From positions 7,690,038 through 7,754,037 of the forward strand of contig NZ_JACHIR010000001.1 in NCBI RefSeq assembly GCF_014203355.1: 64,000 nucleotides of DNA, in the 5' to 3' direction. The stretch comes from Kutzneria kofuensis (lineage in GTDB: Bacteria > Actinomycetota > Actinomycetes > Mycobacteriales > Pseudonocardiaceae). Position numbers and translations under genes: made by a program. The notes beneath the pieces are model-generated. The model made no database searches, was not told the DNA's origin, and saw only the letters and a program-made list of their open reading frames with translations. This document shows positions 21,473-28,903 of this stretch, in pieces (positions within the stretch are counted from its first letter, which is position 1; every line of letters begins with the position of its first letter).

Positions 21473-22372
21473 TCACGTGCCGGGCACCAACTTCTTCACC
21501 GCGATGGCGGTTGCGGAGGCGATGGTGGCACGGCCGGCGGTGGACTTGGGATCGGTCGGCGCGGTGAAAGCCGTGAAGACGAGCGGGGCGTGGTCGGGCG
21601 GCCAGACGACGGCCACATCGTTGACCTCGCCGTGGGAACCGCTGCCGGATTTGTCCGCTGCGACCCAGCCCTTGGGCACACCGCCGCGGACCAGGTCGAG
21701 GCCGGTGGTGCTGGCCTTCATCCAGTTCACGAGCAGGTCCCGGCCGGCGGCGTCGAGGCCCTCGCCGAGGGTGACCTCGTGCAGGTCGGAAGCGAACACC
21801 GGCGGCTTGGTGGTGTCGCGCTCGTCGCCGGGGGCGCCGACGTTGAGGTCGGGTTCGAGCCGGTCGAGGCGGGTGGTGTTGTCGCCGAGGGTGCGCGCGA
21901 ACGCCGTCACGGCGGGCGGCCCCTGGAGCAAGTTGATGAGCAGGTTGTCCGCCGTGTTGTCGCTGACCTTCAGCGTGGCCTCGCACAATTCGGAGACCGT
22001 CATGCTGGTGTGCTGCGAGGTGATCGGTGCGTACTCAAGCACCTGCGACTTGTCGTAGTGGATGACCCGGTCGAGCAGCCCGGGCTGCTGCTGGCGCAGG
22101 GCGAGAATCGCGGCGACGACGAGCACCTTGTGCGTGGAGCACATCAGGAACCGCTCGTCCGCACGATGGGCGACGGACTGTCCGCTGCCGGTGTCGAGCG
22201 CGTAGAACCCGAGCCGGCCGCCGAACTTCCGTTCCAGTGCGGCCAGATCGGGGTCCGGCGGCATCGGCGCCGACGACGTGGTCGACGGGGGAGTGGTCGT
22301 CGGAGTGGTGCTGCAGCCGGCGAGCGCGACGGCGAGCCCGCCGACCAGCAGCGTGCGGCGAGGCAACGGCAT
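21473..22372 (-). CDS. class A beta-lactamase, lipoprotein
   Basis: 299 aa. The signal sequence carries twin Arg (PLPRRTLLVGGLAVALAGC) and a lipobox ending in Cys20, so it is probably a membrane-anchored, possibly Tat-exported lipoprotein, followed by a Thr/Pro/Ser linker. All active-site motifs are intact: S79-T-H-K82, S137-D-N139, E173-x-x-L-N177 and K240-S-G242. It should hydrolyse penicillins and perhaps some cephalosporins outside the membrane. The start at 22372 is preceded by GGGGG. No BlaI/AmpR-type regulator is adjacent. Confidence 0.93.
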   Translation of the reverse strand: MPLPRRTLLVGGLAVALAGCSTTPTTTPPSTTSSAPMPPDPDLAALERKFGGRLGFYALDTGSGQSVAHRADERFLMCSTHKVLVVAAILALRQQQPGLLDRVIHYDKSQVLEYAPITSQHTSMTVSELCEATLKVSDNTADNLLINLLQGPPAVTAFARTLGDNTTRLDRLEPDLNVGAPGDERDTTKPPVFASDLHEVTLGEGLDAAGRDLLVNWMKASTTGLDLVRGGVPKGWVAADKSGSGSHGEVNDVAVVWPPDHAPLVFTAFTAPTDPKSTAGRATIASATAIAVKKLVPGT

Positions 22373-22412
22373 GAGACCCCCAAGGCGTAGGAGGATCACC
22401 CTACCGTGGTGA

Positions 22413-23171
22413 TCAGGCGACGCCCCGAACGGTGACGCTGCCCAGTCCGGCGACCTCGACCCGGACGACCGAAGGCCCGAAGGGCACGGCCGCGGTGGCG
22501 GCGCCGGCCAGGATGACGTGCCCGGCGCGCAGCGGAAAGCCCTGCTTGGCGGCGATGCCGACGAGCTGCCGCAACGCCCGGTACGGATGGCCGAGGATCG
22601 CGGCGGTGGAACCGAACTGCGCGTCCCGGCCGTCGACGCTGAGGCGCACGGCACGGTTGCCGATGTCGCCGACGGGCAGCCAACCGCCGATCGCGAACAT
22701 GCCGCCGGAGGTGTTGTCGGCGATCACGTCGGCGAGGTTGAACTTGAAGTCCCGGTACCGGGAGTCGATGACCTCGACGGCGGGGGCGACGGCGTCGACA
22801 GCGGACACGATGTCCGCCAACGGATCCGTAGGATCGACGTCCCGACCGAGGCGGAACACGATCTCCGGCTCGACGCGGGGATGCACCAAAGTGGACAGTC
22901 GGACCTCGCCGCCGTCCTCGACGCGCATGGCGTCGGTGAGCTGGCCGACGATGATGTCGGAGACGCCCATCTGTGCCATCTTCGCCCGGCTGGTGAAGCC
23001 GAGCTTGGTGCCGACGAGCCGTTCCCCGGCGGCGAACCGCTGGTCCAGCACGGCGTGCTGGATGGCATACGCCTCGTCGATCGAAATCCCGTCCGGCAGC
23101 TGGGGAATGGCCTCCGCGTTGCGCTGGGCGTCGTGGAGCTGGACCGCGAGCGGCGCCACCGAGATCGTCAC
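22413..23171 (-). CDS. dmpH: 4-oxalocrotonate decarboxylase (hydratase/decarboxylase family)
   Basis: 252 aa, GTG start that overlaps the stop of the aldolase gene by GTGA, so translation is coupled. It belongs to the fumarylacetoacetate-hydrolase-like hydratase/decarboxylase family: [27 protein letters not shown] with metal-binding Glu residues, and VIDSRY. Two members of this family occur in the operon; this last one is assigned as the decarboxylase turning 2-oxo-3-hexenedioate into 2-oxopent-4-enoate, and the first (25122-25919) as the hydratase. The two assignments could be swapped, because sequence distinguishes them only weakly. Confidence 0.75.
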
Positions 23172-25919: not shown

Positions 25920-25959
25920 GAGGTCGACGATGGCGGTTCGGCGTGGCACGATGCCAGCC

Positions 25960-26715
25960 ATGCGTTCCACTCAGCGAGACGACGGCCGGAATTCGGTGCT
26001 GGGCAGGGCGGTTTCGCTGCTGTCGGCCTTCCGGCAGGACGACGACCGGTGCGTAACACTGTCCGAACTGGCCCGTCGCGCCGGGGTCGCGAAGCCGACC
26101 GCGCACCGGCTCGCGGGGCAGCTGGTGGAACTCGGGTTGCTGGAGCCGGGGGAGGGCGGGCTGCGGCTCGGGCTGAGAGTTTTCGAGCTGGGGCAGCTGG
26201 TGCCACGGCAGCGGGGGCTGCGGGATGCCGCGCGGCCGTTCTTGGAGGATCTGCACCGGGCGTCGGGGGAGACGGTGCACCTCGCCGTGCTGGAGGCGCC
26301 GGACGTGGTGTACCTCGACAAGCTGACCAGCCGGGCGGCGCCGGCGGTGCCGTCGAGGATCGGGGGGCGGATGCCAGCTCATGCGACAGCGGTCGGGAAG
26401 GCGCTGCTGGCGCATGCGTCGGAAGACGTGCGGGAGGCGGTGCTGGCCCGGCCGTTGGAACGGGTCACGGCGCGGACGGTCGTGATGCGAGGGGTGCTGA
26501 TGCGGGAACTGCGGAAGGTGCGGACCGAGGGGGTTGCGCACGAGTACGAGGAATCGGCGAATGGAGTGGTGTGCGCGGCCTGTCCGGTAGTGGACTCGGT
26601 GGGGAAGGCGATTGCGGCGGTGTCGGTGTCGGGGTGGGTGAACCGGATGCAGCTGGAGAGGGTGGTGCCGGCATTGCGGACAACGGCATTGATGTTGTCG
26701 CGGCAGTGGGGGTGA
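25960..26715 (+). CDS. IclR-family regulator
   Basis: 251 aa from the ATG at 25960; ATG 25951 is an alternative. The winged HTH lies at residues ~10-70 ([30 protein letters not shown]). The effector-binding domain follows, with [13 protein letters not shown] and the C-terminal [21 protein letters not shown] that are typical of the family. Many IclR proteins respond to aromatic catabolites, so it probably governs the divergent dmpE-F-G-H-like operon. Twenty bp after its stop begins the palindromic element that flanks the HNH gene. Confidence 0.9.
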
Positions 26716-26730
26716 GGGTTCGCTTGTGGG

Positions 26731-26851
26731 TGGGCCGATTTTGTGTGGAGCCTCTGGACGATGGCCTACGGGGGGCATTTCCGGGCAGGCTTCGCCTGCC
26801 CCTCGCGCGGTGAGCTTAGGCCATCGTCCACCTCCACACAAAATCGGCCCA
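26731..26851 (+). repeat. palindromic element, copy A
   Basis: A 121-nt nested inverted repeat. Outer arms are 20 nt (26731-26750 with 26832-26851, ending in ATTTTGTGTGGAG), inner arms 14 nt (TGGACGATGGCCTA 26755-26768 with 26817-26830). A central hairpin GGGCAGGC-ttc-GCCTGCCC lies at 26783-26801. Between the arms are CCTC on the left and a single C on the right, an asymmetry that fixes orientation. It starts 16 bp after the iclR stop. Confidence 0.9.
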
Positions 26852-26916
26852 AGCGCATTGTTGGGGGTGGTGGGTTGGCGGTTGTCGGTCGCTGTGGAGT
26901 TGTCAAAGAACCGGGG

Positions 26917-28059
26917 TCAGTATTTGAATGGGCGGGTCGTGTAGTGGCGGCCGGTGGGGGTGGTCCAGTGTGAGGTGCCGTCAGGGTCGCGGGTGACGGT
27001 GTAGTTGTCGTGTTTGCGGTGGTGGTGCCAGGCGCAGAGGCCTTGGAGGTTGGCGGGTTCGGTGTTGCCGGCTGGCCAGGGGGTGATGTGGTCGTATTCC
27101 TGGATGGGGCTAACGCAACCGGGGGCAGTGCAGGTGCCGCCCGCCTGGACGTGGGCGAATTCCTTCATCAACGTGGTGGGGCGGTAGGTGTCGGTGGTGA
27201 TGGCGGTGGCGTGGCGGTACTGGTCGAGGAGGATGCCGCGCCAGGGGCCGTGCATGGCCAACCCTCGGGCGGTGTCGGCGGCGATGGGGCCGTAGCCGGC
27301 GAGGTGGCCGGGGTCGTTGGTCAGGCCCATCAGGGTTTCCATGGAGAGGGTGACGAAGGTCCGGACGTTCCAGTCCCGAGACGCGCCCCGCAACCGGTCC
27401 AGGAGGGCGTCGGACCGTTTCTGGTCGGTGGTGCGGTCGTCGGTGGGCAGGGTCTGGGCGTCTTTGCAGAGTTGTTGGAACACGAGGTGGGCATCGGTGG
27501 CGGGCAGGATCCAGGTCAGTTTGGCCATGCCGTCGGGGAGTGGGGCGAACTCGACGCGGCGGTCCTTGCTGGCTTTGTGGCAGCGCTGCTCGTAGCCGTC
27601 GGGGTTGGCGTGGGCGACTAGGGCGGTGGTCTTGCGGCACAGTTGGGTGCGGTTCAACCCGGCGGCCACACCGACCAGGGCGTCTTCGACCTGGGTGACC
27701 AGGTCGGGGGAGAGGTGTTGGACCCGTTCCCGCACCGCGTCGAGCCGGCGGAAGTCGAGCTCGCCGCGCCGCAGCAGCTCGGCCAGGCGGGGCAGCGTGT
27801 CCAGCACCGTGGCGGCTTCCTTGCGCCGGGCCACGGTCTGCTCGGGTTCGGTGAGGGCCATGGCCAGTTCGGTGATGTCCTCGATCCGGCGCAGTGCCGC
27901 CAGTTCGACCCACTCGGCAAAGGCTTTGATCTTCCGGGCGAGAATGGACACCGTCACCAGTTGGTCGGTGTCCATCCTGGCCCAGTCCACACCCATGATC
28001 ACATCTAACAGGTCCCCACTCGGTTCCTGATTCTCTAGTTCACGGGTGAGTTCTTTCAT
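26917..28059 (-). CDS. DUF222 / HNH endonuclease (13E12-repeat-type protein)
   Basis: 380 aa from ATG 28059 (GGAG just upstream); in-frame ATGs at 28083 and 28119 lack an RBS. Residues ~1-280 are DUF222, mostly helical with many Arg/Glu. The C-terminal HNH nuclease module has CTAPGC, EYDHITPW, NLQGLC and WHHHRKH, i.e. both zinc-ligand Cys pairs and the catalytic His-Asn-His are intact, so cleavage activity is plausible. The family is frequent and multi-copy in actinobacteria with no settled function. Here it is flanked by two inverted palindromic elements. An inverted repeat AATCAC-N6-GTGATT (28095-28112) precedes the gene in locally AT-richer DNA. Confidence 0.9.
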   Translation of the reverse strand: MKELTRELENQEPSGDLLDVIMGVDWARMDTDQLVTVSILARKIKAFAEWVELAALRRIEDITELAMALTEPEQTVARRKEAATVLDTLPRLAELLRRGELDFRRLDAVRERVQHLSPDLVTQVEDALVGVAAGLNRTQLCRKTTALVAHANPDGYEQRCHKASKDRRVEFAPLPDGMAKLTWILPATDAHLVFQQLCKDAQTLPTDDRTTDQKRSDALLDRLRGASRDWNVRTFVTLSMETLMGLTNDPGHLAGYGPIAADTARGLAMHGPWRGILLDQYRHATAITTDTYRPTTLMKEFAHVQAGGTCTAPGCVSPIQEYDHITPWPAGNTEPANLQGLCAWHHHRKHDNYTVTRDPDGTSHWTTPTGRHYTTRPFKY

Positions 28060-28094
28060 GTCTCCAGAATACTTCGCACGCATGATCGAACTCG

Positions 28095-28112
28095 AATCAC
28101 TAACGGGTGATT
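28095..28112. promoter_or_regulatory. inverted repeat upstream of the HNH gene
   Basis: AATCAC-taacgg-GTGATT lies 36 bp before the chosen ATG of the HNH gene, in a small AT-rich island that could contain its promoter. It looks like a dimeric-repressor site; the binding protein is unknown. Confidence 0.35.
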
Positions 28113-28166
28113 GTTTCATGCATAATCGCGCCGGCCGCCACCTCGGCGGCGACACCGAACACCCGA

Positions 28167-28286
28167 GCGTGGATTTTGTGTGGAGGTGGACGATGGCCTA
28201 AGCTCTCCGCGCGAGGGGCAGGCGGAGCCTGCCCCGGAATTGCCCCTCGGAGGCCATCGTCCAGAGGCTCCACACAAAATCCACGC
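28167..28286 (-). repeat. palindromic element, copy B (inverted relative to A)
   Basis: 120 nt; its reverse complement matches copy A. Outer arms 28167-28185 with 28268-28286 share ATTTTGTGTGGAG with copy A, but the outermost six bases are GCGTGG instead of GGGCCG, and each copy keeps its own self-complementarity. Inner arms TGGACGATGGCCT (28187-28199) pair with 28251-28263. The spacer asymmetry (G left, GAGG right) is the mirror image of copy A. The central region again forms a GC-rich hairpin (GGGGCAGGC/GCCTGCCCC type). Confidence 0.9.
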
Positions 28287-28330
28287 GACCCCCACCGCCA
28301 ACCCAACGCCACCCGCAAAGCCCCAAAAAA

Positions 28331-28903
28331 CTACTCCCCCAACAACCGCTGCCCCTTTCGCGCCCACTCCACCCTGGTCCGAGCCACCGCCGCGATCCCG
28401 TCGAACACATGCGCCTTCAACCGCGCGATCCGGTCATGATCCTCGGGGTCCCGCCGCGACAGCCGCTCCTTCAGCAGTGCCGTTTCCTTGCGCAGCAACC
28501 GATCCCGGTGCGCCTCCGCCTCCGCGGCCGCCTTCTCCTGCTCGGCGATGAACGCCTCCAACACCTCCACGGCCTCACCCGCCGGGATCATGTCGAAGTT
28601 CAACGCCTGCACCATGAACGGGTCCCGCGGCGGCGCGGCGTCGTGCGCCACGCCGAGCCACGACGTCAGCTCACGGTGCCCCTTCTCCGTCACCGAGTAC
28701 ACGGTCCGGGTCAGCCGCGGCCCACGAGCCTCCTCGTCACCGGCGATCAACCCGGCCTGCTCCATGCGACGAAGCATCGGATAGATCTGGCTCTGCGGCG
28801 CCGCCCAGATCCACCCGGTGGACCCGTCGAAGAACCGAACCAGGTCGTAGCCGGACATGGGGCGTGCCTCCAGCACCCCCAACAAGGCATGCTGTAGGGA
28901 CAT
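28331..28903 (-). CDS. PadR-family regulator
   Basis: 190 aa. N-terminal winged helix with LQHALLGVLEARPMSGYDLVRFFDGSTGWIWAAPQSQIYPMLRRMEQAGLI and the basic wing RTVYSVTEKGHRELTSWL, standard for PadR. The C-terminal ~90 residues are helical (EQEKAAAEAEAHRDRLLRKE), probably a dimerisation coiled coil as in the Vir/PadR-s2 type. It is 16 bp downstream of the semialdehyde dehydrogenase, last gene of the aldolase-like - MFS - ALDH - padR operon. PadR proteins commonly sense phenolic acids, which fits control of the aromatic pathway. Confidence 0.9.
   Translation of the reverse strand: MSLQHALLGVLEARPMSGYDLVRFFDGSTGWIWAAPQSQIYPMLRRMEQAGLIAGDEEARGPRLTRTVYSVTEKGHRELTSWLGVAHDAAPPRDPFMVQALNFDMIPAGEAVEVLEAFIAEQEKAAAEAEAHRDRLLRKETALLKERLSRRDPEDHDRIARLKAHVFDGIAAVARTRVEWARKGQRLLGE

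Follow-up and report, generated by a model that had tools for sequence, protein, structure and literature searches.

An HNH nuclease-like gene between inverted nested palindromes forms a unit that has apparently reached new sites and replaced its own copies in Kutzneria

What is a gene for a nuclease-like protein doing between two inverted copies of a 120-base palindrome? The question arises from a stretch of 64,000 nucleotides of the Kutzneria kofuensis genome, which we call the window. Palindrome B (28167..28286, minus strand), for which 72 distinct relatives were aligned and their pairs counted, lies at the 5' end of the gene, on the unit's left when it is read in the direction of the gene, and palindrome A (26731..26851, minus strand) lies at the 3' end, inverted relative to B. 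Their outer arms are perfect over 20 and 19 bp, A has a 14-bp middle arm as well, and the two, inverted to each other, show 92% complementarity over 75 nt. As single strands both folded far better than 200 dinucleotide shuffles (z of -10.8 and -11.7), none of which did as well. The original prediction had placed two mutually inverted palindromes here around exactly one gene; the computed arms, complementarity and folding confirm the palindromes, and the single gene, which is on the minus strand, stands too.

The whole unit, palindrome to palindrome, spans 26729..28292 (minus strand). These ends were transferred from C2_551 and C2_565, the two closest copies of this genome; the window has the same tips, with a single-base difference at the leftmost position. 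The unit sits between two convergent host genes, an IclR-type regulator (25930..26715, plus strand), whose stop codon is approximately 13 bp from it, and a PadR-type regulator (28331..28903, minus strand). Both genes are orthologous flanks in G001, G002, G005 and G006, the other Kutzneria genomes in which we found the unit; the window's own genome is G000. Elsewhere in the window, a minus-strand frame at 21473-22654 resembles a class A beta-lactamase that carries a lipoprotein signal, its STHK motif having been seen by eye.

The gene is read from an open frame of 412 codons on the minus strand (26917-28155). The most likely start, read by eye from a GGAG followed by an ATG, is at 28059, which gives a gene at 26917..28059 and a protein of 380 amino acids; the assignment draws on the frame, the sequence upstream and the match to Pfam family PF02720. 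That match, to DUF222, covers residues 108-261 of the 412-residue frame (27373..27834, minus strand) with an E value of 2.5e-17 and 63.6 bits against a gathering cut-off of 24.4. Pfam finds no other domain in the window protein, and 10 of 10 diverse homologues match DUF222 at E 0.01. Near the C-terminus, an HNH-type motif recognised by eye (27010..27132, minus strand) comprises C342, C347, D355-H356, C374, H377-H378 and K381 in the 412-residue numbering, and in the alignment these residues are invariant among the 10 homologues. At E 0.01 none of the 10 was matched by a Pfam HNH model, and the HNH label is given here tentatively, on the strength of the C..C / DH / C..HH motif and of plasmid homologues recorded as 'HNH endonuclease signature motif containing protein'.

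With DUF222 the sole domain found, Pfam gave no tyrosine (Y1/HUH) transposase domain, neither TnpA nor TnpB domains and, in the window protein, no DDE domain. NCBIfam and PADLOC models matched none of the 10 homologues at E 0.01. An AlphaFold model of the window protein, run with one Kutzneria relative, was unusable (mean pLDDT 38, pTM 0.20), and the best solved-structure match of the 10-homologue profile, a MarR regulator, was weak at E 0.022 and was not used. Scans of viral contigs returned no relatives that could have made the alignment deeper; phage records gave six partial matches, all below 60% identity, and plasmid records gave seven matches.

The unit in the window, the only copy that the original prediction had in view, is one of several scattered through the genome. 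G000 has 17 places at which a DUF222/HNH gene lies between inverted nested palindromes, and some of these units are broken. A search with palindrome A recovered 32 distinct palindromes and four fragments, which coincide with protein matches at the 17 places. All 66 matches to the 14-base outer arm, with at most one mismatch, fell at the same places, leaving no free arm in G000 by this search, and a reversed-pattern control gave none. One worn protein match (C1:7037315-7037624) has no palindrome.

Two of the broken units in G000, C2_632 and C1_315, each have an insertion sequence inside one palindrome. These insertion sequences are of the DDE_5 type and lie at CTAA (L065 and L067, respectively). 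Near-identical insertion sequence copies of approximately 1.43 kb adjoin units C1_7208 and C1_7378, and an insertion sequence neighbors three of the G000 copies. Insertion sequences have likewise been reported to sit at REPs (PMC1525189).

Palindromes of the same kind accompany the gene in all five Kutzneria genomes (G000, G001, G002, G005 and G006). A 20-base end motif had 123 matches in them and none in a control, and none in G003 or G004; the latter, coded as the same genus, has 13 protein matches but no such palindrome by this motif. All but two of the 123 ends lie at DUF222 genes or their remnants, the exceptions being a gene-less scar in G002 and an end near a contig end in G001. When the 90 matches outside G000 were checked, three further ends proved to belong to units whose gene match was split or started elsewhere. 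The expected co-occurrence of palindromes and DUF222/HNH genes was thus borne out. The pool of free, non-autonomous palindromes suggested by analogy with REP/RAYT systems did not appear, there being one gene-less scar among the 123 ends. That scar (L221) is a lone palindrome remnant at the place in G002 that corresponds to C3_70 in G000, and is apparently left by a deletion. The protein itself has a match in 65 of the 100 genomes searched, G000 included.

For further comparison we studied 62 copies: 17 from G000, 8 from G001, 3 from G002, 16 from G005 and 18 from G006, those of the relatives being the best matches listed (G006 has further places beyond its 18). A strict pattern extracted 102 hairpins, 73 of them distinct, from 58 of the 62 copies, with both ends recovered in 44; one hairpin in reversed register was dropped, leaving 72 for analysis. 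In their consensus an outer stem is followed by a one-sided C-rich bulge and then by a middle stem, and the inner hairpin is off-centre. Paired cells number 2,664 of 2,719 (98.0%), and 15 of the 38 pairs show two-sided changes. When the partners were slid by one to three columns, pairing fell to 37-48% and the two-sided pairs to between two and six, a comparison that favors the unslid version because the structure was derived from the same alignment and the outer arms were partly fixed by the pattern. For the same reason, the two-sided changes are firmer evidence than the 98% pairing. No Rfam family came near its gathering score; the four weak matches, to microRNA families, probably reflect the hairpin shape.

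Does the unit move? In the closest pair, C2_551 and C2_565, the sequences are 97.8% identical over 1,565 alignment positions, from TGGGTCGCGTGGATTTT to AAAATCGGCCCACC, and unrelated outside; the shared stretch starts just outside one palindrome and stops just outside the other. As a further check, we searched four relatives for the anchors of 15 sites. Seven sites had close anchors, which gave 18 orthologous stretches. No palindrome arm occurs in any of these, nor any protein match below E 0.03, although the G002 stretch for C1_6263 matches the body of the unit over 42 bp of DNA (E 1e-4). At five sites there are relatives in which the site is empty, with the flanks at most approximately 100 bp apart: C1_850 (4 of 4 stretches, the flanks abutting within a few bases), C1_670 (3 of 3), C1_7378 (2 of 2), C1_7594 (1 of 1) and C2_518 (1 of 3). 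Other sequence takes the place of the unit in the remaining two C2_518 stretches, in all three at C1_6263 and in both at C1_523. At C1_850, approximately 189 bp of extra DNA lie between the right palindrome and the ancestral flank. In G001, the unit-less C1_523 place (L199) has a strong terminator-like hairpin, seen by eye, directly after a stop codon, and a link between terminators and insertion sites is possible.

We recognised no target duplication by eye, either at the closest pair or at the empty sites, and Pfam gave no DDE domain in the protein; on both counts the unit does not fit a DDE insertion sequence. The comparison showed the unit occupying intergenic sites that are, to judge from the aligned flanks, empty in relatives, with no recognisable target duplication. 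Gene and palindromes are missing together from the 18 orthologous stretches. This, with the co-occurrence in five genomes and the limits of the closest pair, supports the proposal that the HNH gene sits in a mobile unit bounded by hairpins. The opposite case, a common repeat with no enrichment at HNH genes and acquired independently of them, is not what the genomes hold.

The same genomes record a second process, which the original prediction missed. At four sites, the unit or its remains occupy orthologous positions in at least two species and point the same way, and for at least one pair the match extends to both flanks; for two more sites, C1_315 with G001 and C1_7208 with G002, the sharing rests on one flank. 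If copies had simply been inherited at these sites, same-site copies should group together, but a tree of the 62 copies groups them by genome: the copies of G001 (8), G005 (16) and G006 (18) form one clade each and those of G000 (17) form two, while the three of G002 scatter. Site-wise grouping was rejected in five of five AU tests (p of 7e-5 or less, one short G002 copy being left out). In six same-site pairs the bodies are 62-70% identical and the palindromes 69-90%, while the flanks are 74-88% identical, apart from two right flanks that do not align (42-43%). In seven chosen same-genome pairs, none of them across the two G000 subfamilies, the bodies are 88-93% identical and 13 of the 14 palindromes 97-100% (the other 87%), while the flanks, at 43-48%, are at what we take to be the level of unrelated DNA.

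These comparisons show, as far as alignments and trees can, that copies within one genome have been homogenised; even where a site is ancestral and shared, each species has a version of its own. The shared-site data could also be read as insertion that recurred at one spot and in one direction, but this is less likely. Homogenisation is incomplete, since G000 keeps two subfamilies, with 57-59% protein identity between them, and G006 has two subclades in the tree. Taken together, the empty sites and the shared sites with genome-wise clustering indicate that the unit inserts anew and that its copies overwrite each other. In Kutzneria, then, a nuclease-like gene and two inverted 120-base palindromes make up a unit that appears to have moved and to have overwritten its own copies, and yet it encodes no known kind of transposase.

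How would such a unit work? The account that we consider probable, with real room for error, is that of a mobile element, a DUF222/HNH gene between inverted nested palindromes, whose protein binds and cuts DNA and so causes another unit to be copied. The protein would bind the palindromes, which are probably extruded as hairpins with the conserved C-rich bulge when bound. It would cut at a palindrome or at a target, and the break would then be repaired by copying another unit. Overwriting would in this way resemble the action of a homing endonuclease, and new insertion that of a hairpin-recognising transposase. We infer that the protein drives insertion and homogenisation because it is the product of the only gene found in the unit, the gene is mostly intact, and the palindromes are found with it; cutting of the palindromes by the protein is likewise a deduction.

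Counted from the likely start codon and not from the stretch upstream of it, the gene is intact in 55 of the 62 copies (14 of 17 in G000, 6 of 8 in G001, 1 of 3 in G002, 16 of 16 in G005 and 18 of 18 in G006), and one of the two non-intact G001 copies is cut by a contig end. On the same basis, the median within-genome dN/dS is 0.42 in G000, 0.20 in G001, 0.09 in G005 and 0.24 in G006, where the G000 value mixes the two subfamilies and single pairs reach 0.69.

Low dN/dS and so many intact genes speak against the strongest of the alternatives, that host recombination alone spreads the units, with the gene a passenger that serves, for example, in defense. Long palindromes break; here they would break at replication and be repaired from other copies. 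The homogenisation seen in the tree, the AU tests and the pair identities is what this would produce, and in other lineages DUF222 genes have become numerous with no such pair of palindromes. Moreover, C2_551 and C2_565 carry the same frame break and yet occupy different sites. A defective copy was copied, so that movement either works in trans or is the work of host recombination, and the pair warns that movement may draw on the machinery of another copy or of the host. However, recombination does not readily explain units at sites without homology, nor the near absence of gene-less palindromes, and a defensive passenger is not what the PADLOC result, with no model matching the 10 homologues at E 0.01, would suggest. 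We regard it as unlikely that the host acts alone.

HNH nucleases include homing enzymes, and a second alternative is pure homing, in which the nuclease cuts homologous sites that lack the unit or carry a diverged one, and repair across the flanks copies the unit in without true transposition. Same-site, same-orientation sharing and homogenisation within genomes are the trace expected of it. The unrelated flanks of same-genome copies and the existence of empty sites in relatives make this improbable as the whole explanation.

The position of the unit among its neighbors bears on the last alternative. With a crude gene caller, neighbor orientation was called for 58 of the 62 copies, 24 of them convergent, though in 10 of the 58 a single end was matched and the unit's own gene could pass as a neighbor; among the 48 copies with both ends found, 22 lie between convergent genes and 26 do not. 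Strict insertion between convergent genes was rejected on account of these 26 and of the insertion-sequence neighbors at the three G000 copies, and convergent siting is at most a preference. This last alternative, which the site in the window and the 22 convergent copies might suggest, takes the palindromes for common bidirectional terminators that flank a multicopy gene by chance. It is very improbable given the 26 copies elsewhere and palindromes that occur almost exclusively with this gene, are mutually inverted, define the ends of the closest copies, and keep their bulge and inner hairpin with two-sided changes.

The preferred reading, a nuclease that acts on the unit's own palindromes, lends itself to direct experiment: with defined ends, empty sites and homogenised copies, there is a nuclease, a defined hairpin and a countable outcome. 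If it is true that the nuclease moves the unit, an HNH enzyme would be added to the ways in which bacterial DNA moves.

We also looked beyond Kutzneria, at a point absent from the original prediction: DUF222 units have multiplied in other genera without this palindrome pair. In a survey of 120 genomes of the bacterial family, with the best 17 candidates scored for most genomes, at least 74 had DUF222/HNH matches, many of them 10 or more. In G039 (8 of 8 copies) and G012 (6 of 6), a hairpin of unrelated sequence lies upstream of the gene, the repeats end at or near the stop codon, and no second palindrome was seen. G014 has an upstream hairpin of unrelated sequence in the seven copies seen, one of them a shorter form; by eye, the left end there (L201-L207) is a long outer stem around two hairpins, clover-like, before the DUF222 gene. 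Also by eye, G129 has a hairpin after the stop codon in the five copies looked at, and G034 (L156-L158) has terminal inverted repeats of approximately 40 bp where the Kutzneria unit has palindromes. In G004, G013 and G087 a simple search for arms gave no palindromes, a negative that says little because the same search missed the G039 hairpin. Since the ends differ so much, the palindrome pair is the Kutzneria form and not a rule for DUF222. We suggest tentatively, and with more doubt than we attach to the mechanism, that DUF222/HNH genes and DNA hairpins may constitute a separate class of actinobacterial mobile element in which an HNH nuclease reads long nested hairpins, two-ended and inverted in Kutzneria and one-ended in other genera.

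Among the open-access papers listed, judged from titles and the starts of abstracts, we found no palindrome-bounded DUF222/HNH units, and in what we saw of that literature no tested role for DUF222/HNH genes. By protein, the nearest described relatives are the mycobacterial REP13E12 (13E12) repeats, in which DUF222/HNH units are also multicopy and the copies often convert one another (PMC13061034, PMC10589994). Compared by description only, they differ in that paired long nested inverted palindromic ends are not mentioned in the available parts of those accounts (PMC13061034, PMC10589994). If the proposed mechanism is true, it might be relevant to the hot spots of conversion that have been reported in these repeats (PMC13061034).

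The nearest architecture is that of REP/RAYT systems, which likewise have one gene with two inverted extragenic palindromes (in Kutzneria, at least one hairpin in 58 of the 62 copies and both in 44). RAYTs are described as single genes flanked by inverted REPs, with gene and palindromes varying together (PMC2817692), as they do in the Kutzneria unit. REPs are given as 20-40 bp (PMC3733652), against approximately 120 bp for the Kutzneria palindromes. The enzymes differ as well, a tyrosine transposase there and only DUF222 here. The proposed likeness to REP/RAYT therefore holds for the architecture, a gene between inverted palindromes, and fails for the enzyme, which is no RAYT. In REP/RAYT systems many palindromes are free of the gene, over 100 per genome, whereas in Kutzneria almost none are, with the two exceptions among 123 ends.

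IS200/IS605 elements have hairpins at their ends and make no target duplication, and the Kutzneria unit resembles them in both respects. They encode TnpA and TnpB, whereas the Kutzneria unit has neither domain, and the hairpin at one of its ends is an inverted copy of that at the other. In IS200/IS605, subterminal structures are recognised by the transposase (PMC6006769). Finally, HNH homing endonucleases, like the Kutzneria unit, combine a single nuclease-like gene with copies that replace one another at homologous sites; in contrast to them, the unit is intergenic, lying as far as seen in no intron, intein or host gene, has palindromic ends of its own, and occupies non-homologous sites.
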